Of a DNA stretch of 25,786 nt, positions 4,178 through 25,154 are shown one piece after another. The stretch lies in IMG/VR virus record IMGVR_UViG_3300008450_000395, positions 1 through 25,786 of that record; one strand, given 5' to 3'. The stretch comes from a virus. The position numbers and the translations under genes are program-made. The stretch's first letter is position 1. Each line of letters begins with the position of its first letter. The notes under the pieces were generated by a model, which worked only from the letters and a program-made list of their open reading frames with translations, searched no databases and was not told the DNA's origin.

Positions 4178-4186
4178 GATAAATAT
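4178..4186 (-). promoter_or_regulatory. ATATTTAT intergenic element, copy 3 (one mismatch)
   Basis: The coding strand reads ATATTTATC three bases before the ATG at 4174. The last base differs from the other copies, and the first base lies in the stop codon of the AT-hook gene. Confidence 0.3.
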
Positions 4187-4668
4187 TAACTATCCTTCCT
4201 TGGGCGTCCACGTTTTCCGCCAGTCTTAACGTACACTGTTGATTTCTTTAATGTTGGGTCCATTTTTGGACGGCCACGTTTACCACCAGTTTTAACATAT
4301 ACAGTAGGTTCTTTTTTAAGTGATGGATCCATTTTTGGACGACCACGCTTACCTGTACCTTTACTTGTACGTATTTTTTCAGCTTTGGCTTTACGTTTAA
4401 AGTATCTAGGATGTATAATTAATGAGTCAGTGTGAAATGCTCTACTAGCACCTGTAGTATCAGTACATTCATATCCACCACCTTTCCAACCTGGAGTTCC
4501 GTCTGGGTGGTATTTTTTGAAGAAGAATTTATTGCCGTTATCACTTTCATAATATTGAGCAGGTAATACTTCAATACCTTCAGTAAAATTCAAGTATTCT
4601 TGTTCATTAACTTCTACCACATATGCTTTACGCGGGTAGATAGGTGCTTCTACATCAATTACTTTCAT
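4186..4668 (-). CDS. Triple AT-hook DNA-binding protein
   Basis: The 160-residue protein has an N-terminal domain of about 95 residues that I do not recognise, with aromatic residues and a GWKGGGYECTD motif. Its basic tail contains three AT-hook cores: RGRPK at 108-112, RGRPK at 131-135 and RGRPR at 153-157. They are separated by near-identical spacers (MDPSLKK and TVYVKTGG). AT-hooks bind the minor groove of A/T-rich DNA, which suits this A/T-rich genome. The three repeats differ at many synonymous positions, which suggests the protein sequence is being conserved. The start lies 5 bases after the previous stop and shares 14 bases of leader (AAATAAAAGTTATG) with the gene starting at 4877. Genome organisation, transcription control and host nucleoid takeover are possible roles. 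Confidence 0.75.
   Translation of the reverse strand: MKVIDVEAPIYPRKAYVVEVNEQEYLNFTEGIEVLPAQYYESDNGNKFFFKKYHPDGTPGWKGGGYECTDTTGASRAFHTDSLIIHPRYFKRKAKAEKIRTSKGTGKRGRPKMDPSLKKEPTVYVKTGGKRGRPKMDPTLKKSTVYVKTGGKRGRPRKDS
4189..4350 (-). repeat. Three tandem in-frame AT-hook coding repeats
   Basis: The 3' third of the AT-hook gene encodes three copies of a KRGRP(K/R) core. The first two repeats are 23 and 22 codons long and the third is truncated by the stop. Codon use differs between copies. Confidence 0.7.
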
Positions 4669-6921: not shown

Positions 6922-7350
6922 CTAAACCAAATCTTTAGTAAAAAACTTGCCTAATATATTATCATTGTAAGATTTATTGCTACTAATTAACACTTCTTCT
7001 TTACATTGATAGTGCATTTCCCAATATGTGAGTTGTTTTTTAGTTAGACATTGTTTAAATATCCAACATTCAAATTTATCCTCTCCATATTGTTTTATGT
7101 CTGTGAGCAATTGTTTATTAGAACCCCAATATGTTTTCCAGTCACTTTCAACACGAACTACTTCATGTGTGGGTTTGCGACCTGGTGTGGGTGGAAGCTC
7201 AGCGAGTTGTTTTTTAGTGAGTTTTTTCTTTTTATTATGCCAATAGACCTTTTTACCAACATAAAACTTACCAGTTTCTTTGTTAGTTATTTTGTAAATA
7301 AATCCAAAATATTTTTCTGGATTGATTTCTTCTCGTCCTTTCCATTTCAT
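6922..7350 (-). CDS. GIY-YIG nuclease, likely homing-endonuclease-like
   Basis: The 142-residue protein shows the GIY-YIG fold in order: GFIY (16-19) and FYVG (29-32) in place of GIY and YIG, a basic stretch with K33/K34, WGSNK near 75-79, then an E111 in TYWEMHY as the candidate metal-binding glutamate. The rest, about 30 residues, is too short for a large DNA-binding domain, though the KKKKLTKK stretch at 40-47 is very basic. It sits exactly where the tail gene block ends and replication genes begin. Free-standing GIY-YIG genes of this kind in T4-like phages (Seg type) are selfish elements. A repair nuclease is the alternative. Confidence 0.75.
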   Translation of the reverse strand: MKWKGREEINPEKYFGFIYKITNKETGKFYVGKKVYWHNKKKKLTKKQLAELPPTPGRKPTHEVVRVESDWKTYWGSNKQLLTDIKQYGEDKFECWIFKQCLTKKQLTYWEMHYQCKEEVLISSNKSYNDNILGKFFTKDLV

Positions 7351-7372: not shown

Positions 7373-8347
7373 TTAACAGGCAGTAGAACCATCTACTGTT
7401 ATATATACGTTATTAGTTCCACCACTCACAGCGCCATAGTTGTAAGTACATCCAAATCCAGATGATGGACAAGGTGATGTTGAAGAACCAGCTATAGCAT
7501 ACGCACTAACAACATCAAATGTCACTGTATCACCAGGTATTAATCCAGTTATTGTATATAAGTAATCACAAGTTGATGATAAAGTAAGAGGAATTTCATT
7601 GAAAGTTCCACTATTAATTTTATATCTTAAAGTACCACCACTGTTTATATATTTAGCATATACTATTAAAGAAACACTACTAGGAGGTGTTGTTGAAGGT
7701 GTCACACTAGGTGTCACACTAATACTTGGTGTTGTGCTTGGAGTTACACTAATTGAAGGTGTTACACTAGGTGTCACACTAATACTTGGTGTCACACTTA
7801 TACTAGTTGTAGCAGAAGGTGTTACACTAGGTGTCACACTAATACTTGGTGTCACACTTATTGAAGGTGTAACTGAAGGTGTAACTGTTGGTGTTGGAGG
7901 TATAAATGATGGTGACGGAGTCATTGATGGTGTCACTGAAGGAGTAAAGTATGGTTTATTAATCCATTGGGTGTCATATTTAACTAAAAATGTCATATCA
8001 GTGTTAGATGATAATGGCATTGGTGAAGCTAATTTTGCTACTGCTAATAAATCTCCAGCATCATTATATAATCCTATTTCACTAGTGTATGGAGAAAATT
8101 CTGAACCTGTAGTGAATGGTTTTAATATACCAAAATATTCTGAGCCTGTTGGATTGAAAAATACATCTCCACCAACTGAAGAACTATATGGGAATAAAGC
8201 AGCTTGAGAACCTGATAATAGAGACGGATTATAACTTAAATTAAATTCATAATCCTTAATAGTACACTTAATAAAATTCTCATAAACAGTATGACTGTTT
8301 TGAAATTTTATTCTTGTGATTCCTGTATTTAATGTTCTACTATTCAT
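7373..8347 (-). CDS. Tail fibre/adhesin with SVTP linker, Cys-terminated head (1)
   Basis: The ATG at 8347 is used, giving 324 residues; it lies two bases after the previous stop, and the frame's earlier TTG would overlap that gene. Residues about 1-130 resemble the C-terminal domain of the protein encoded at 10340-11431 (shared GLYN[11 protein letters not shown] motif), suggesting a common docking fold. About 90 residues of Ser-Val-Thr-Pro repeats form an extended linker. The C-terminal head of about 100 residues contains four cysteines in or near TCDY, SPCPSS, FGCTY and the final STAC, so it ends in Cys like its two paralogues. A role in host-receptor binding is inferred from architecture. 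No secretion signal is seen. Confidence 0.65.
7680..7950 (-). repeat. SVTP-coding low-complexity repeat, fibre 1
   Basis: In-frame 12- and 18-base units (GGTGTCACACTA on the plus strand encodes the reverse of PSVT) repeat across this stretch. It is coding, and near-identical units occur in two neighbouring genes, so recombination between them is possible. Confidence 0.8.
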
Positions 8348-8349
8348 AA

Positions 8350-9048
8350 TTAACAAGCAAAAGTTGATGGATTTACAGGTGCATCAATATAATTAACACA
8401 AACACTATTTACATCATAATTACATCCTACATAAGCACCACCTCCAGCACAAGGATCACTATTATTATAACTTTGACCCGCTAAAATTGTACCATAAGCT
8501 TGATATGTGTATTGGTATATGTTGTATTGATATAATTCAATAGATAAAATATAATTTGTATCAACTAATACAGGTTCAAGTAATGTTATATCCCATCCTA
8601 AATAATCATCACAACTTCCTCCTGTACAAGGTTGAGTACTTGCGTTTGCTCCTATAACTCTAGGAGCATAACCAACAGATGGTGATGGTGTTATACTTGG
8701 TGTTACAGTTGGTGTTACACTAGGTGTAGCAGATATAGAAATAGATGGAGTCACACTTGGAGTTACACTTGGTGTACTTGGTATACTTGGACTTACACTA
8801 ATACTTGGTGTCACACTAGGTGTAACAGTTGGTGTCACACTTGGACTTATACTAATACTTGGTGTTAAACTAATTGTAGGTGTAACACTTGGGCTAGCTG
8901 ATGGTAATGGACAAAAAGCTAAATCTAAAAATGGAGCTATATAATCAGGATCACTAATACTATTAGTTTTAGTCACACCAGTAGCAACACCATTATCTAA
9001 ATAGTATTGTTCTAGGTCTGTATATGCTTTAAATCCTGTATTACTCAT
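8350..9048 (-). CDS. Tail fibre/adhesin with SVTP linker, Cys-rich head (2)
   Basis: This 232-residue protein has the shortest N-terminal part of the three fibre paralogues (about 50 residues, starting [16 protein letters not shown]). About 80 residues of SVTP/SISP repeats follow, then a head of about 95 residues. The head has cysteines in [20 protein letters not shown] and SVCVNY and at the final residue (STFAC). Pairing into disulfides is plausible but cannot be seen. The N-terminal segment is unlike those of the neighbours, so this may be an accessory tip joined to another fibre. The gene begins four bases after an ATATTTATA element and ends two bases before the next fibre's ATG. Confidence 0.65.
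8675..8905 (-). repeat. SVTP-coding low-complexity repeat, fibre 2
   Basis: This is the same class of in-frame Ser/Thr/Pro-coding units as in the other two fibre genes, here with more SISI and SPSI variants. It is coding, not an array of spacers. Confidence 0.75.
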
Positions 9049-9052
9049 TTTT

Positions 9053-9061
9053 TATAAATAT
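9053..9061 (-). promoter_or_regulatory. ATATTTATA intergenic element, copy 5
   Basis: The coding strand reads ATATTTATA followed by AAAA and the ATG at 9048. Only four bases separate it from the start codon. Confidence 0.35.
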
Positions 9062-9063
9062 TT

Positions 9064-10329
9064 TTAACAAGCTCCATCTGCTAAAATAATCTGAACTGTT
9101 GTAGTATTATTTATTACAAGACCAGTAAATGAAATAGTTCCATTTCCAGTCACATTTTGTTGATAATAATTTGCACCACTGTCTGTTACTTGAATACATC
9201 CATTCAATGTAAATCCACCTATTGAGATATTCAAAGTTTCATTATTACCAGTTTGGTTAGTAGCAAAACCATGTCCATCAGTACTAAACGGAACATTAGT
9301 TCCACTTGTTAAGGTAGGTGTTGATCCATTCACATCAATAGCTGTGACACTATAACCACCTGCACCAGTTGTAGCATCAAAATATAAACTACCTGATAAG
9401 GTAGGAGGTGTTGTTGATGGGGTTACACTAATTGTTGGTGTTACACTTATTGAAGGAGTTGTACTTATTGAAGGTGTTACACTAATTGTTGGTGTTACAC
9501 TAGGTGTTACACTTGGTGTTGCACTTGTTGATGGAGTCACACTTGGTGTGCTTGGTATACTTGGACTTACACTAACACTTGGTGTCACACTAGGTGTCAC
9601 ACTAATACTAGGTGTAATACTTACTGAAGTAGTCACACTAGGTGTTACAGATGGAGATGCTTGAACACAGAAAGGATTAGCTCCTCTCCAAGCTGTAGCT
9701 CTCATACTATTAGGTACAACAGTAATTATAGCAACATTCTGTTCATAGAATATATTTCCTACTTGTGAACCTGCTACTAAAGTAGTTCCAATAGATGAAC
9801 CTACAGGACTTCCACTATAAAATAAATTATAGTTTCCGTCATCATAAAATTTATAATCAACAGAGGCACTATTTAAAAACACTTCAAATGTACCAGGTAA
9901 TATTTTTTCACTGGTTAAAGATCTAGGTATGTTTAAAACATAGATAGAAGCATTAGCTCCTGTTGGGAAAAATTTAACTGTATCTAAATTACCTAAATCA
10001 ACTAATCCTCTATTATAAGACTGAGTAGTTAAAGTACCATCATTAAGTGTGGTGTTTTGTCTTTCAGTTAAATATAAAGATGAAGCTGATGGTAAAAACT
10101 TAGGATAATAAATCATATTGATAGAATTGTAAACCAATCTATCATACTGACCATTAGTTATGTATTCACTATTAGGATCAAATATAGATCCACTATAATT
10201 AACTCCTAAGTTGACTACAATTCTATGATCAGCAAATGAGCCGGATGAAATATCCCAGCTTTTATTCGCTGTATATGGTACTACGAAAGTATCAGATACA
10301 CTAAATCTCTTGTAAACATCTGCTGACAT
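9064..10329 (-). CDS. Tail fibre/baseplate protein with SVTP linker, Cys-terminated head (3)
   Basis: The 421-residue protein has an N-terminal beta-rich domain of about 220 residues. It includes the pattern I-P-R-x(6)-I-L-P-G-T-F and later VGNIFYEQNVAIIT, which mirrors the adjacent 10340-11431 protein (R-F-K-E-S-I-N-P-G-S-F and GIMIPDEGLIIL); the two are probably paralogues in the baseplate or fibre base. An SVTP linker of about 85 residues follows, then a head of about 110 residues with cysteines at NGCIQV and the final DGAC. No catalytic motif is seen. This is likely a virion-attached fibre whose head differs from those of the two genes downstream, and the whole set may present several receptor-binding heads. 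Confidence 0.65.
   Translation of the reverse strand: MSADVYKRFSVSDTFVVPYTANKSWDISSGSFADHRIVVNLGVNYSGSIFDPNSEYITNGQYDRLVYNSINMIYYPKFLPSASSLYLTERQNTTLNDGTLTTQSYNRGLVDLGNLDTVKFFPTGANASIYVLNIPRSLTSEKILPGTFEVFLNSASVDYKFYDDGNYNLFYSGSPVGSSIGTTLVAGSQVGNIFYEQNVAIITVVPNSMRATAWRGANPFCVQASPSVTPSVTTSVSITPSISVTPSVTPSVSVSPSIPSTPSVTPSTSATPSVTPSVTPTISVTPSISTTPSISVTPTISVTPSTTPPTLSGSLYFDATTGAGGYSVTAIDVNGSTPTLTSGTNVPFSTDGHGFATNQTGNNETLNISIGGFTLNGCIQVTDSGANYYQQNVTGNGTISFTGLVINNTTTVQIILADGAC
9405..9660 (-). repeat. SVTP-coding low-complexity repeat, fibre 3
   Basis: In-frame Ser/Thr/Pro-coding units, with several blocks identical at DNA level to those at 7680-7950 and 8675-8905. Confidence 0.8.
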
Positions 10330-10339
10330 GGGCGAAACA

Positions 10340-11431
10340 TTAGAAGTCTAATTTAACTTTTAATAATAATTCCTTGGTAAAGTCTTTAACTAGAGGTTTA
10401 TTTAATTTAGCTACTGCTAATAAATCACCTGTATTGTTATATAAACCAACTGTTGTGATAAATGTTTGAGGATTATACACTAATTGAGTATATAATAAAT
10501 TACCATTAGTATCAATTATAGTTGGGTTAGTTGTGTAGTTAAATTCAGCATTCTTAACACGTGTAAAGAAATAACGTGATGAGATTGTTTCATAGTTCTG
10601 TAAACTAAAAGTAGGAGCTAATACAACACTAGATGAAATCATATCAAAAACCATTCTGTTATTGATATTATAAGTTGCTGTTGTACTAAAGAAAGCAGCT
10701 GCTTGAGATGAGCTAAATTCATTAAATACAGCACCTACACCACCTAAAGCACCAGCTGGTAAAGCTAAAGCTCTTGGATTTAATATGATTAATCCTTCAT
10801 CAGGAATCATAATACCATAAGATCCACTAACTGTGTAGTTAGAAGATGAAGGTAAGTTTGTTTGAGTTGATGAGTTATAAGAGCCACTTAATAATTGATA
10901 AACACGAGATGTACCAATATAAGTTGAAGTAGTTGTTACACTTGAATCATCTACTAAACCAATTGATCTAGCACTACCACCACTGCCACTTGTAATACGT
11001 AAGAAGAAAGAACCTGGATTGATAGATTCTTTAAATCTTGATCTGTTTACAGATAGTACAATAATGTCTTTTGATGTGAAAGTTGAACCGCCAAATTGGA
11101 ATGATGAATTTTCATCTCCATAGACTAATGATCTAAATTGACCATAAACATCTCTTGTTGGTGTTTTATCAACTACTAAAGGATTAAAATAAGATGATCC
11201 TGATCCACTAATGTGACCATAAGCAATAGTGAACTGAGACTCAAGTGATTGAGTTGCAGCTACATTTCCTTGATAAACATTAAGGAAAAATTTACCAGCA
11301 GGAGTATTTTGCTCTTGTAATGACCAACTAAAAAAAGTGGTTAATTGAAGAGTATTGTTGCTCCACATTGGTGACACTATCGCGTCTGAACTTAGGACCT
11401 GATCTTCAGGGTTGTATGCTCCAAAAGACAT
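10340..11431 (-). CDS. Baseplate or fibre-base structural protein
   Basis: This 363-residue protein lacks an SVTP linker but shares sequence with both sides of the fibre set. Its middle region (RFKESINPGSFFLRI, then GIMIPDEGLIIL) resembles the N-terminal domain of the 9064-10329 protein. Its C-terminal 75 residues (AEFNYTTNP, then [16 protein letters not shown]) resemble the N-terminal domain of the 7373-8347 protein. It is rich in Ser, Thr, Asn and Gly, as usual for phage tail proteins. It probably forms the platform onto which the fibres dock, an inference from domain sharing and gene order. The start is the first ATG, 7 bases after the previous stop. Confidence 0.6.
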   Translation of the reverse strand: MSFGAYNPEDQVLSSDAIVSPMWSNNTLQLTTFFSWSLQEQNTPAGKFFLNVYQGNVAATQSLESQFTIAYGHISGSGSSYFNPLVVDKTPTRDVYGQFRSLVYGDENSSFQFGGSTFTSKDIIVLSVNRSRFKESINPGSFFLRITSGSGGSARSIGLVDDSSVTTTSTYIGTSRVYQLLSGSYNSSTQTNLPSSSNYTVSGSYGIMIPDEGLIILNPRALALPAGALGGVGAVFNEFSSSQAAAFFSTTATYNINNRMVFDMISSSVVLAPTFSLQNYETISSRYFFTRVKNAEFNYTTNPTIIDTNGNLLYTQLVYNPQTFITTVGLYNNTGDLLAVAKLNKPLVKDFTKELLLKVKLDF

Positions 11432-19175: not shown

Positions 19176-21050
19176 TTAGTAAGTTACAATACGACCATAA
19201 ATATCAGTATTAGGATATCTTACTTCAAAAATACATGGATCTAAAGAAGGATAAATAACACCTTGTTTAGTTGCGCCTTTAATATCATATGAATATGGAG
19301 AATAATTACCACCAGCTAAATTTACAATATCTACTTTAATAACTGATTGAACACCTTGAATAGCTCCAATCATGTTGTATATATCTGAATATATAATAGG
19401 TTGGTTTATTTGCCATTTATCTATATTGAAATAATCTTTTAATGTATTGATACATTTAGTTAATACTTCTTGTGAGTTATAAGCTGGTAGTACTGTTATA
19501 TCAAAATTAACTTTAATATTAATATAGTAACCATCCTTAATAATAACAGCGTCACTCATCATCTTATTGTATGATAAGTATGTTTTTAAATTTTGTTTAA
19601 TAACATTAGATGCTTTAATTAGTTTACCATCTAAATTAGTTGTTAAAATATAGATAGATAATGCTAATGGATTATTGTTAATAAAGTTTTGTCTGTCAGT
19701 ATCATTAGCTACTAAATAATCTTGTGTTACATAAGCCTTACTTATATAACCAAATTTAGCAGGTAAAGATAAAGTACGAACTAAATAGTCAGCTTTAGTA
19801 ACGTTTCTATTTTGAGTTGGGAAGTTAGCTAAAGCTTGTAAACGAATTTGTTCTGTTGTTTCACCAGGTCCACCACCTGAAGAAGGTTGATCATTATTAA
19901 ATCTTATAGATCCTGATACTATGTTAACTATTGAAGAGTTTAAATTATAATCATTGATTGATGTTATTACAGTTTCAGCTACACCAATATCATCAGATGG
20001 TAAGTTGGCTTCAATACCACCACCAACTAAATAAGTAATTGTTAAAGTTGTATTTGAAGGTGCTACACCATATTCATTAGTATACATGAAGTTTGATGGA
20101 TCATAAGCCATAAACATTTTACTAACACCATCTACTAAACCTAAACCTACATTGTCTGGGTTAGGGATAATTACCTCGTCTGGAGATGATGTTATACCAC
20201 TACCAAATTCTAGTATTAAATTATTATCGTCATCAAAGCGAGTAACAAAGCGTCTATCAACTTTTTTAAGACGTAATAAGAAACGAGCACTATCATCATC
20301 ATTATAGTAGTTAGGTTCGTTTACAGGCAGATTTAATGACTCATCAAATACAGTATCCTGTGCTAAGTATGGTACTTCATACCAAGTATTATTATCACTA
20401 TCAGTTACATTTAATACCTGTATAATATTAGTATCACTAATAGTTATATTTTGAAATTGTTGAGGAGTAGTAAAACTAAATTCAGTACTTCTAACTTGTC
20501 CTGAAATAGCTTCCACTGATTTTTTAAGTAGATAATATTGAGGATTAGTTGTATTAGTAAAGTATTGATATATAGTAACTTCAGTTGGGTCAAATGATGA
20601 TGAGAAACCAAAATCAACTGAGTCTTGAGTTATAAAAGTTATGCTTGGGTTTGATATAGACTTAATAGAAGAATTTTTTTCTACTTTTAAAGTATATCTA
20701 TAATCAGGTCTATAGTTAGGAGCACCCTCTGAAGGTATTAATTGGTATACACTTAAATTAACAGATGAAACATTAGTTATTTTGGGTCTGTAGCCTAAAG
20801 CGTATGCTAAAGCAATTATATTTTTTCTTTCTTGAGCGTATAATAATAATGTTTCTTGTAACTGAGTATCAGTATAGAATGATAAAATATCACCTACATA
20901 AGCGGCCATTTCAATGAACATATTACCAGGAGCAGATGGACTAAAGTCCATATAGCTATTTTGGAAGTATGTTCTAGCGTAGTTAATTAAGTCTGACTTT
21001 AATACACTAAAGTCTTTATCAAAATATTTTATATCAGGTACGTTTGCCAT
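19176..21050 (-). CDS. Baseplate wedge protein, gp6/baseplate J-like
   Basis: The 624-residue protein starts MANVPDIKYFDKDFSVLKSD and contains the segment SPSAPGNMFIEMAAYVGDILSFYTDT (about 37-62), which is characteristic of gp6/J-like wedge proteins. Later regions include the GGGPGETTEQIRLQA-type segment (about 390-405) before a NVTKADYLV motif, also typical. In contractile tails, gp6 dimers form the ring that joins wedges around the hub. The neighbouring upstream gene is gp25-like, which matches the usual gp25-gp6 pairing. The stop of the gp25 gene and this ATG are separated by only three bases. This is among the firmest assignments in the window. Confidence 0.8.
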   Translation of the reverse strand: MANVPDIKYFDKDFSVLKSDLINYARTYFQNSYMDFSPSAPGNMFIEMAAYVGDILSFYTDTQLQETLLLYAQERKNIIALAYALGYRPKITNVSSVNLSVYQLIPSEGAPNYRPDYRYTLKVEKNSSIKSISNPSITFITQDSVDFGFSSSFDPTEVTIYQYFTNTTNPQYYLLKKSVEAISGQVRSTEFSFTTPQQFQNITISDTNIIQVLNVTDSDNNTWYEVPYLAQDTVFDESLNLPVNEPNYYNDDDSARFLLRLKKVDRRFVTRFDDDNNLILEFGSGITSSPDEVIIPNPDNVGLGLVDGVSKMFMAYDPSNFMYTNEYGVAPSNTTLTITYLVGGGIEANLPSDDIGVAETVITSINDYNLNSSIVNIVSGSIRFNNDQPSSGGGPGETTEQIRLQALANFPTQNRNVTKADYLVRTLSLPAKFGYISKAYVTQDYLVANDTDRQNFINNNPLALSIYILTTNLDGKLIKASNVIKQNLKTYLSYNKMMSDAVIIKDGYYINIKVNFDITVLPAYNSQEVLTKCINTLKDYFNIDKWQINQPIIYSDIYNMIGAIQGVQSVIKVDIVNLAGGNYSPYSYDIKGATKQGVIYPSLDPCIFEVRYPNTDIYGRIVTY

Positions 21051-21053
21051 TTA

Positions 21054-21473
21054 TTATTGAGTTAAATCTTGTGTTGAAACATTTATCACTAAATTATCAT
21101 CTTGATTGTTTATTGAATAAGATAATGATATGGTTATATAATTTATATCTGATGATCTTTTAATTGAAATATCTCTAATAATAATATTAGGCACATAAGC
21201 ATATATTTCATTTTCTAATCTAGCAGCTACACTGTCAAATGCTGTGTCTGGTTCAAATAAAGATGCTCTTAAGTTTCCACCAAAAGTAGGATTAAATAAT
21301 CGCTCACCTTTGTCTGTTAATATATAGTTGATTAAGTTTGATTTAACTTGTTCTTTAGTAGTTGTGGTTGTATTAAATACACTAGTCTCATTATTGAAAA
21401 CAACACTAATACCTATACCTCGTTTTTGTCCGACATCTACAGGATTAATACTATATGTGGGTCTTCTTAACAT
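21054..21473 (-). CDS. Baseplate wedge protein, gp25-like
   Basis: The 139-residue protein has the gp25/GPW-type core: VKSNLINYILTDKGERLFNP (43-62) followed by FGGNLRASLFEP (64-75), with the E57-R58 position near the start of the domain and an Ile-rich C-terminal half. It is the size expected of this family, which forms the wedge sheath-initiation region together with gp6 and gp53. Its ATG overlaps the previous stop (TAATG). The N-terminal 40 residues, including a Thr run at 35-39, extend beyond the core. The gene order gp25 then gp6 supports the call. Confidence 0.85.
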   Translation of the reverse strand: MLRRPTYSINPVDVGQKRGIGISVVFNNETSVFNTTTTTKEQVKSNLINYILTDKGERLFNPTFGGNLRASLFEPDTAFDSVAARLENEIYAYVPNIIIRDISIKRSSDINYITISLSYSINNQDDNLVINVSTQDLTQ

Positions 21474-23462: not shown

Positions 23463-23498
23463 AATTTTGAGCGGTTAATTACAATTTTGAGCAGTTAA
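23463..23498. repeat. 16-bp direct repeat across the end of the hub hydrolase gene
   Basis: AATTTTGAGCGGTTAA (23463-23478) and AATTTTGAGCAGTTAA (23483-23498) differ at one base and lie 20 bases apart. The first copy contains the gene's stop codon and the second encodes the last residues, so this looks like a short tandem duplication at the 3' end. Confidence 0.6.
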
Positions 23499-25154
23499 AT
23501 TCGCATTTCTTATTTGATCACAATCACAGTTGAAAGATGATGGAATTGTTTTTATAAACCATCCAGAGTAAGGTATATTATTACTATAATGAACATGATT
23601 AAAATGATTTCCTCCTTTACTACGATTATTAAAATACCATAAGACTCCTCTCTTATTAGCTCCTTCTCCTCTTCCAGCATTTGGAAGAGTTACAGCACTA
23701 GCTACAAATTTATCAGCTAAAGCTTTAAAAATAGATGATACAGGAGTATATGGTGTTTTAGAATCTACATCTGGGGTTCCGTCAGCAGCTACATTTGCTT
23801 TAGAATCAGTAATGAGTTTATCAGCAGGAGCTATAGTACCAGTTAAATCATAGAAACCAGGTAAATCAAGACCTTCTCCTTTCATATGTCTACTTATATT
23901 ACCACTTGTTGTTTTACATGAATGACCACTTCTAGCGGTGCCTACATAAATTTTTAATTGTGTAGCTTTAGCTATGGCTATTAAATCTAATACTGTATTA
24001 GGATTAATAACACCATTTGTCCAATCATTCCAAGCTTGATTTGAAAATTTTATATATTGATTTAAATCTCTAACTATGTCAGCTGTAGTCAAGTCAGGAG
24101 GAAGACCACCACCTGAAAGAGAAAGTGTTGTAATGACTGATGGATAAGTATCTTTTAAGGATGCTGCCGCTGCTTCTGAACAAGTATCTCCATAACCACT
24201 ATCAAATAATTGAAATCCATCATTTTCAGTGGCTGGTAGGAAATTAGCTTCATATAATTCTTCTTCTTCTTGAACTGTAACTGTTACAGGAGGAGTTGTT
24301 ACTGGGGTGGGTGTTGGAGTGATAGTAACAGTAGGAGGTGGAGTCACTTGGCTACCACATTTGATATTTTCTTTCATTACTTCCCCAACTATTTTAAGAG
24401 CGTCCCAATGAGATGTTCTTGTTCCTTTGAAGTTTGTATCAGATGGATTACTAATAACTCCTTTACCAACACTTGTATTTGGACCAACATAAACATTTTC
24501 TGGAGGGACACCACTAGCCACAGCATCTTGAACTATTTTCTTTGTTCCTGCTCCAACAGCCCATGGTTCAACAATATATATTCTATTTTTATTTATACCT
24601 TTAACAGCAGCTATTTTATCAGCGTATTCACATCCTTTACTAAACATTATAACTGGAACTTTAGGATGGTCTTTTAAAAAGCTAGTAATTGTCGCTACAG
24701 GGGTTGACCAAGGAAATGCTTTTACATTTTTATCAGTTCCATATCCTTTTTTAAATATTTCTAACTGATCACTAATTGTTTTATATCCTCTAGATGTATC
24801 ATCTAATCCTCCAACTAATACAGCATCAAATACATCATCACATTCATCTTGTAGTGGATTAGTAAATACAATATTATTATCTTGAGGAGTAAATAATGAA
24901 TATTGATTGCTATTAGGAATATCTACATCAACAGGTTCACTGTCAGCATTCATTATACCTATGTAAGATGAATTAGTATTAGGATTAATATCTACAACAC
25001 CATCAAATGATGTTTCATTTAATTCATTAGTTATTTCTTGTAACTTAGCCCCAAATAAAAATTTTCCATTTTTAGTGAGTGTTAACCCACCTCCATCTTC
25101 TGATTGAAGAGAGATATCAGTTGGACTTTGTTTTGAAAAATAATTATTAGCCAT
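23475..25154 (-). CDS. Tail hub hydrolase: alpha/beta-hydrolase-like domain plus M15-type peptidase
   Basis: The 559-residue protein has four parts. Residues 1-100 are polar and beta-like and may be the attachment region. Residues about 105-265 look like an alpha/beta hydrolase: VLVGGLDD at 112-119, a possible nucleophile S172 in MFSKGCEY and a late His at H249 in SHWDAL; this call is tentative. Residues about 270-295 are a Thr/Pro/Val linker. Residues about 310-535 resemble M15_3 D-Ala-D-Ala peptidases: S-R-H423-x6-D430 and H520 in FNHVHYS are the likely zinc ligands. Such domains degrade peptidoglycan peptides during DNA entry. It sits between the beta-rich protein and the spike-like gene. 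The C-terminus is Cys-rich (CDCD and the final QNCN). Confidence 0.7.
   Translation of the reverse strand: MANNYFSKQSPTDISLQSEDGGGLTLTKNGKFLFGAKLQEITNELNETSFDGVVDINPNTNSSYIGIMNADSEPVDVDIPNSNQYSLFTPQDNNIVFTNPLQDECDDVFDAVLVGGLDDTSRGYKTISDQLEIFKKGYGTDKNVKAFPWSTPVATITSFLKDHPKVPVIMFSKGCEYADKIAAVKGINKNRIYIVEPWAVGAGTKKIVQDAVASGVPPENVYVGPNTSVGKGVISNPSDTNFKGTRTSHWDALKIVGEVMKENIKCGSQVTPPPTVTITPTPTPVTTPPVTVTVQEEEELYEANFLPATENDGFQLFDSGYGDTCSEAAAASLKDTYPSVITTLSLSGGGLPPDLTTADIVRDLNQYIKFSNQAWNDWTNGVINPNTVLDLIAIAKATQLKIYVGTARSGHSCKTTSGNISRHMKGEGLDLPGFYDLTGTIAPADKLITDSKANVAADGTPDVDSKTPYTPVSSIFKALADKFVASAVTLPNAGRGEGANKRGVLWYFNNRSKGGNHFNHVHYSNNIPYSGWFIKTIPSSFNCDCDQIRNANLTAQNCN
24283..24345 (-). repeat. Thr-Pro-rich linker coding region in the hub hydrolase
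   Basis: A short in-frame run of Thr, Pro and Val codons joins the two enzymatic halves of the hub hydrolase. It resembles the SVTP linkers of the fibres in composition but has a different unit. Confidence 0.6.

Follow-up and report, generated by a model that had tools for sequence, protein, structure and literature searches.

We propose that three consecutive minus-strand genes, g3, g2, and g1, located at positions 7373-10329 of the IMG/VR virus record IMGVR_UViG_3300008450_000395, form a head-display array that occupies a break in a baseplate gene. Here, the window denotes the whole 25.8 kb (25,786-nucleotide) stretch of that virus record, and all coordinates are window positions. According to this reading, to which we assign a probability of roughly 0.68, a baseplate-associated protein is split into halves A and C that reassemble, and the genes carry C-terminal heads that are closed by cysteine, drawn from a common pool, and exchanged. 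Transcription runs in the order g4, g3, g2, g1. The original prediction, made from the window alone, described three consecutive genes with linkers rich in Ser, Val, Thr, and Pro and with unlike heads ending in Cys. This description holds, but the N-terminal parts of the three genes also differ, forming three unlike docks termed A (g3), B (g2), and C (g1), and two of these are halves of one protein. A terminal Cys was restricted to g1, g2, and g3 among the 26 listed open reading frames (ORFs) of the window. The parts of the array and the adjoining gene g4 are as follows; linker boundaries were taken from a stricter second segmentation that replaced a first one.

9064-10329, minus strand: gene g3, 421 amino acids (aa), C-terminal end ...ILADGAC
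9658..10329, minus strand: dock A of g3, N-terminal half of the split baseplate-associated protein, placed by a hidden Markov model (HMM) of residues 1-214 and by single-ORF homologues in L062/L065 and 20 further fused rows
9403..9657, minus strand: S/V/T/P linker of g3, 85 aa, placed by motif segmentation with direct and tandem repeats
9064..9402, minus strand: head of g3 with stop codon, family F5, 112 aa, 2 Cys, 92% identical to the internal head of the dock C protein of relative L052
8350-9048, minus strand: gene g2, 232 aa, C-terminal end ...NPSTFAC
8896..9048, minus strand: dock B of g2, about 46-51 aa, Cys46 adjoining the linker, accessory and missing from part of the group
8677..8895, minus strand: S/V/T/P linker of g2, 73 aa, placed by motif segmentation
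8350..8676, minus strand: head of g2 with stop codon, family F1, 108 aa, 6 Cys, placed by alignment and a predicted beta-sandwich
7373-8347, minus strand: gene g1, 324 aa from the ATG (327 aa from a TTG at 8356), C-terminal end ...VDGSTAC
7946..8347, minus strand: dock C of g1, C-terminal half of the split protein, placed by HMM, matching the C-terminal part of the 336-aa ORF of relative L062 and of gp166 of the Flavobacterium phage vB_FspM_immuto_2-6A (immuto)
7682..7945, minus strand: S/V/T/P linker of g1, 88 aa, placed by motif segmentation
7373..7681, minus strand: head of g1 with stop codon, family F2, 102 aa, 4 Cys, predicted seven-strand beta-sandwich, also found on other carriers
10340..11431, minus strand: g4, the gene immediately preceding g3 in transcription, an unsplit paralogue of the A+C protein

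Relatives were collected by a scan of viral contigs with g4, which yielded 22 loci (numbered with the prefix L), and the sample was widened by scans with the dock A alignment, the dock C alignment, and the unsplit protein. Three of the 22 loci were other assemblies of the window virus and were 100% identical at g4. In the two of them that hold the whole array (L006 and L007), the gene lengths and ends were as in the window; thus, the switchable specificity suggested earlier was not borne out, nothing like phase variation being seen among the assemblies. In the arrays of relatives, slots A, B, and C (g3, g2, and g1 in the window) were recognisable, and both their order and the presence of B varied. 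The dock C scan used the best 80 of 191 relatives, and the tree of 63 rows described below is therefore a sample.

The relation between docks A and C became apparent from relatives in which no break exists. L062 and L065 contain a single 336-aa ORF whose residues 1-205 match dock A and whose residues 206-331 match dock C; it sits between g4 and the GIY-YIG and primase genes and contains no linker, head, or B. Similarly, gp166 of the immuto phage, encoded directly downstream of the g4 homologue gp165 (39% identity to g4), bears dock A N-terminally and dock C C-terminally. These single ORFs indicate that g3 and g1 carry the halves of one ancestral-type protein with the array in the break; at the level of sequence, docks A and C are two halves of one protein of about 336 aa that is a paralogue of g4. 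The C-terminal part of g4 itself matched the dock C HMM (E 4.4e-5). In g3, dock A homology stops near residue 212, and the stretch up to residue 224 contains Cys221. In the window, the linker and head of A occupy the break between A and C, followed by gene B, which brings a linker and head of its own, and by a fresh start for C; dock C bears the third linker and head, and dock B matches neither half.

Among 63 unique rows with an assigned state, 42 were split and 21 fused (L061 and L066 were entered as split although the C ORF was not found in either). At least six changes between the two states were forced by well-supported branches, compared with 17.9 in shuffles (0 of 500 as low). An open C ORF lay downstream in 40 of the 42 split rows, the exceptions being L061, where the contig ends, and L066, which has an interrupted copy. 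The distance from the stop of A to the start of C ranged from 2 nt (L158, in which no linker was found) to about 3.6 kb, and L182 and L183 were unsplit with extra residues between A and C. Dock C was headless in L055 (a 138-aa ORF) and carried only a linker-like tail in L021, L023, and L024. The ratio of nonsynonymous to synonymous substitution rates (dN/dS) was 0.08-0.29 for A (10 close pairs) and 0.06-0.37 for C (6 measurable pairs), indicating that both halves are under purifying selection. In 19 genomes, distances correlated between A and g4 (r 0.91), C and g4 (0.82), and A and C (0.84), whereas those of the primase did not follow them (0.36-0.42). A single clade of split genomes in the window subgroup was not rejected (p-AU 0.23).

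The heads were then compared as units. The set comprised complete heads from the window and selected loci; duplicate assemblies were removed by eye, L026 was skipped, and the slot C head of L025, open at the contig end, was dropped. Pieces of fewer than 25 residues, or with P/T/S above 50%, were taken for remnants of linkers and left out, and a single L008 piece with two heads was counted once, as odd in Cys. The resulting 72 heads fell into 42 families at E<=1e-5, and the three window heads were mutually non-homologous at the same threshold. Close relatives carried different heads on nearly the same dock: the head families of L011 and L025 differ although their docks A are 97% identical, and those of L014 and L015 differ on docks C that are 90% identical. 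Conversely, one head type occurred on different docks. The slot A head type of L011 was found on dock C in L025, and the g1 head type was borne by dock C in six genomes, by dock A in L021, and by further carriers, namely a different dock (L083), a dock whose linker consists of T/S only (L069-L073), and an ORF devoid of a dock (L081/L086). The window g3 head and the head inside the L052 slot C protein were 92% identical in amino acids and 87% in DNA over 376 nt, despite identities of only 64% for dock A and 60% for dock C; this head type also crosses linker chemistries, with SVTPS linkers in the window and TPTP in L052. Judged from their sequences, the heads thus form a shared pool, being swapped between close relatives while the docks persist and recurring as the same family on different docks. 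Fixed combinations of head and linker were looked for among the relatives and exchange was seen instead, so the earlier claim of head exchange stands. L016, considered as a case of the window g2 head on dock A, was rejected: in this relative, genes A and B are fused, dock B being retained, and it was not counted as a head swap.

Junctions were mapped in genome pairs, not independent of one another, in which dock DNA was 80% or more identical and the heads belonged to different families. The 5' break in homology fell inside the linker in 34 of 39 pairs (in the dock in 4 and in the head in 1), and a resumption of homology was found in 38 pairs, in 32 of them no more than 15 nt from the stop codon. 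The exchanged unit is accordingly the head, from linker to stop. Recombination within the linker, as originally proposed, therefore accounts for the 5' junction but not for the 3' junction at the stop codon, nor for heads that cross linker chemistries. No reverse transcriptase indicative of a diversity-generating retroelement was detected among the window proteins scanned against PHROGs and Pfam, which were a part of the ORFs. One scan of bacterial genome contigs, made with head 1 (that of g1) only, returned no relatives, and tblastn of the three window heads against the phage collection gave no match at E<=0.01. The slot A protein of L019 (L019:9085-14271) is 1728 aa long and has six heads and as many linker stretches, the longest of 335 aa; two of the heads are only 29 aa, with Cys at or next to each end.

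The linkers of all three window genes are composed of S/V/I/T/P and share repeated motifs. They had been described as near-identical in DNA, which was an overstatement: ungapped copies of 57 and 106 nt matched the reference copy at 60-91% identity, and exact sharing between window slots reached no more than 23, 25, and 29 nt. Across 12 listed genomes, the longest exact between-slot runs were 14-39 nt. Sharing of linker 12-mers across the slots of one genome was 0.137, against 0.056 when genome labels were shuffled within slots (0 of 2000 as high). This likeness within genomes fits exchange or conversion between slots, and shared codon use could contribute.

In 64 of 72 heads, a Cys was among the final six residues (within-head shuffles, mean 18.0 and maximum 30), and in 33 of 72 the last residue itself was Cys. 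A strictly terminal Cys is thus not a universal feature among relatives. The rule of a Cys near the head end was kept by 16 of 17 internal heads, which are followed by a further linker rather than a stop. The idea that the terminal Cys is an end signal of the protein was thereby rejected, indicating that the Cys closes the head and not the protein. The number of Cys was even in 63 of 70 Cys-bearing heads, including the window heads (2 in g3, 6 in g2, and 4 in g1), and by family 36 of 42 were even, 4 odd, and 2 zero (binomial p=1.9e-7). Even counts and end position together suggest that the terminal Cys closes the head through an internal disulfide. The proposal that it locks each head is thus reinterpreted as a mark of the head end, also found inside proteins, which fits an intra-head disulfide. 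In structure predictions, from which the head-start alignment A7 was excluded because it placed starts on the dock, head 1 formed a seven-strand beta-sandwich with the last strand reaching the terminal Cys (predicted local distance difference test, pLDDT, 91), and head 2 (that of g2) formed a beta-sandwich with pLDDT of about 90 over most of the head. The baseplate position and the exchange suggest that the heads are adhesins or receptor-binding domains.

A further Cys lies at the end of dock A, adjoining the linker. It was present in all 18 genomes with dock B (L008-L020, L025, L035, L036, L066, and the window) and missing in 7 split genomes without B and in the fused L062 and L028; L026, L044, L060, L061, and L064, whose contigs end in gene A, were set aside. 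A disulfide may form between the Cys of dock A and that of dock B; since the association follows clades, it is weak evidence for such a bond.

Several observations weigh against the proposed array. The tree behind the six state changes is a quick one with long branches and support of a single type, so that their exact number is uncertain, and L062 nests among split genomes in the free tree, so that either state may be ancestral in the window subgroup. In L066, the dock-C-like sequence (between L066 positions 8903 and 9280) is broken by two in-frame stops, although the array is otherwise loaded. The GIY-YIG gene adjoins 20 fused and 37 split forms. The number of Cys was odd in 7 of the 70 Cys-bearing heads, and two heads had none. 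Foldseek returned no match at E<=0.001 for heads 1 and 2, and the best VIA hits were weak beta-sandwich matches, with Z 7.3 for head 1 (5u6f, rmsd 3.0, 89 aligned) and Z 6.4 for the g2 head (8xek, rmsd 4.1, 96 aligned). Finally, 41 of 42 head representatives had no Pfam match at E<=0.01. The closest Pfam approach was to CBM56, for which the best E among the 42 representatives was 0.0018, below the cut-off; g1 matched it at E 0.008 with 16.8 bits, under the cut-off of 27, so that the gathering score was not reached. In a PDB profile search, head 1 gave one weak match (7quz, E 0.0087), and head 2 and dock A gave none at E<=1. Because of these weak or near-absent matches, the assignment of receptor binding draws on position and exchange.

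The neighbouring endonuclease gene bears on how the exchange may arise.

6922..7350, minus strand: SegE-like GIY-YIG endonuclease ORF (Pfam SegE_GIY-YIG, E=5.4e-25, 88.4 bits, cut-off 25)

Of the 59 rows offering room for it, 57 had a GIY-YIG ORF downstream of C. In the window, it is placed after C and not inside the A/C break, which consists of head cassettes and gene B. Nuclease and dock similarities were discordant: L011 and L012 share 87% in dock A and 41% in the nuclease, and L012 and L014 share 81% and 96%, respectively. This discordance suits recombination around the array in which the nuclease itself is exchanged. Downstream of dock C, the close relatives L010, L011, L012, L014, and L015 alternate between two GIY-YIG alleles that are strongly divergent (41% versus 96-98% identity).

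It might be argued that the exchange is driven mainly by this homing endonuclease through co-conversion, the linkers merely marking the end of resection or strand exchange. The near-constant position of the SegE-family ORF and its discordance with the docks speak for this explanation, and there are precedents: nucleases at the boundaries of phage exchange (PMC10448857) and co-conversion by the free-standing nucleases of T4 (PMC2988022) have been described. However, the slot A swap between L011 and L025 ends at the slot A stop and homology is regained across B; exchange tracts therefore need not extend as far as the nuclease. Moreover, a nuclease that is present beside fused forms as often as beside split ones is not specific to the split and is not what defines the array. 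We therefore consider nuclease-driven exchange unlikely as the main cause. Somewhat less doubtful, although still short of an even chance, is the possibility that the linkers are the substrate, repeated S/T/P codons within one genome moving heads between slots by homologous recombination or slippage. The excess sharing of 12-mers, the exact runs between slots, and the 5' junctions in linkers would all be expected from it; nevertheless, codon use and composition could produce one linker style per genome, identity between slots is only moderate, and the 3' junction has no linker.

The other two alternatives concern what the array is. The genes could be ordinary modular tail fibres, that is, three independent genes with conserved anchors and swapped tips, the A/C homology merely reflecting anchor domains that belong to a tandem family. 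Phages are well documented to swap C-terminal parts while keeping a conserved N-terminus (PMC10684548); in addition, g4, the A+C protein, and dock C are paralogous, and dock B belongs to neither half. This explanation appears improbable to us, as docks A and C match contiguous, non-overlapping parts of one L062 ORF at the same locus, C persists in a headless form in L055 and, in three further relatives, with no more than a linker-like tail, and an open C ORF persists downstream in nearly all split rows. An equally improbable proposal is that the heads are decoration or cargo, such as virion-protecting or sugar-modifying accessory domains, and not adhesins. The dearth of Pfam matches would agree with it, as would the glycosyltransferase-like and other non-tail ORFs, so labelled from reading the sequence, in the break of some relatives. 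In contrast, receptor-binding proteins are typically diverse, exchanged, and encoded in the baseplate module, as the heads are, and head 1 resembles CBM56 weakly, below the cut-off.

Under the head-display reading, the following course of events is envisaged. The split would create an extra C-terminus on which a head can hang, while halves A and C would still assemble together on the tail baseplate. Each new C-terminus would display a flexible linker and a disulfide-closed adhesin head, the disulfides inside the heads forming outside the cell. Heads would be replaced by recombination between co-infecting phages, the exchanged tract being joined within the linker on one side and at the stop codon on the other, and double-strand breaks from the neighbouring GIY-YIG nuclease would possibly help or start the exchange. 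A more far-reaching version is that a conserved protein serves as a plug-in site: it would be opened repeatedly at the same loop, its halves would reassemble on the virion, its C-termini would bear pooled disulfide-sealed modules, a Cys bond between A and B in the subgroup with gene B may tether the third head, and the break would be an island for accessory genes. We put this forward only tentatively, as we regard it as somewhat more likely to be wrong than right.

The surroundings of the array are those of a contractile tail.

19176..21050, minus strand: baseplate wedge subunit of a contractile tail module (PHROG 219, E=1.6e-17)
21054..21473, minus strand: second baseplate wedge subunit (PHROG 261, E=3.3e-18)

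These two subunits upstream indicate that the region is the tail module of a contractile-tailed phage, the array sitting in the same gene run as the wedge PHROGs 219/261 and g4-type proteins. When PHROGs were searched with unsplit and g4-type proteins of relatives, five of six gave nothing at E<=0.01; the 591-aa protein of the Microcystis phage Mel-JY01 matched phrog_3545 (unknown function) at E 4.6e-15 and tail families more weakly. Rhodothermus phage RM378, examined as a split isolate, gave weak dock-C-like matches in p119 and none convincing for A. In L165, L185, and L194, ORFs resembling glycosyltransferases or a methyltransferase lie between A and C, and in some relatives the break holds another adhesin-like dock (both labels from reading the sequence only); the former ORFs might have the virion or the S/T linkers as targets of modification. 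Eight copies of the octamer TATTTATA are present on the coding (minus) strand of the window, at 742, 1053, 7370, 9060, 12133, 17373, 18548, and 21936, each copy shortly upstream of a listed gene start and two of them directly after the g3 and g1 stop codons; it is a candidate late-promoter or start-region motif. At 23475-25154 (minus strand), a 559-aa tail-region protein with a T/P-rich linker (29 aa in the first segmentation), 8 Cys, and the end ...AQNCN had no PHROG match at E<=0.1. At 4186-4668 (minus strand), a 160-aa protein contains a 66-bp tandem repeat encoding KTGGKRGRPKMDP motifs, which are AT-hook-like and below the Pfam cut-off.

C-terminal exchange in receptor-binding proteins (PMC10684548) and split phage genes with cooperating products (PMC2988022) are already known. 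The exchange described by Smug et al. (2023; PMC10684548) is alike in that related phages share a near-identical N-terminus and differ by an unrelated C-terminal domain, and it reaches across distant phages too. Its cases differ from the array, which has short Cys-closed heads on S/T/P linkers, three slots, and two docks that are halves of one protein. With a conserved anchor, non-homologous C-terminal domains, and a place in the tail/baseplate module, the array appears to belong among modular receptor-binding proteins. The split genes of T4-related phages (Aeh1 nrdA, phage 25 gene 43, and T4 topoisomerase; PMC2988022) are likewise a single ORF in relatives, with two retained products and a free-standing endonuclease ORF nearby. 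The cases described there are enzyme genes with an endonuclease or intercistronic sequence in the break, whereas here a baseplate-associated gene has head cassettes in the break, at least six state changes, and GIY-YIG after the second half. The single ORF at the same locus in relatives and the purifying selection on both halves are those of a split gene; as the endonuclease gene lies outside the break, the array is compared with the genes-in-pieces class and not assigned to it by that feature. Among isolates, the immuto phage (gp165/gp166) and Mel-JY01 encode g4 homologues (39% and 32-34%, respectively) and a single-ORF A+C protein, in Mel-JY01 with GIY-YIG and primase next to it; in contrast to the window, both are unsplit and segmentation revealed no S/T/P linkers or such heads. 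The modular Ig-like adhesins of gut phages (PMC13370021) are also beta-sandwich-type modules in varying orders in phages of Bacteroidota. Those described in that source contain BACON, PKD, and Ig-like domains and were tested on epithelial cells, whereas the present heads have no Pfam match to any of the three and form part of a split baseplate gene. The tail proteins of Agrobacterium phage Milano, baseplate included, carry disulfides as well (PMC10811340); the Milano bonds described link subunits, whereas the even Cys counts here suggest bonds within heads. In the open-licence literature searched, which limits this statement, we found no description of a baseplate-type gene repeatedly split at one point as a site for head cassettes.

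By exchanging heads, these uncultured phages probably alter the targets to which they bind. If the proposed reading is true, the array would represent a natural plug-and-play display site, in which a structural protein tolerates a cut at one point for interchangeable binding heads. It would explain how adhesion diversifies without disturbing the baseplate, and it would join split genes, known from phage enzymes, with the evolution of receptor binding. The Cys rule, that is, an even count with a Cys at the end, internal heads included, provides a simple marker for such modules in metagenomes. On the same reading, the unsplit, short-split, and loaded versions would form a ready set for a direct comparison of assembly.

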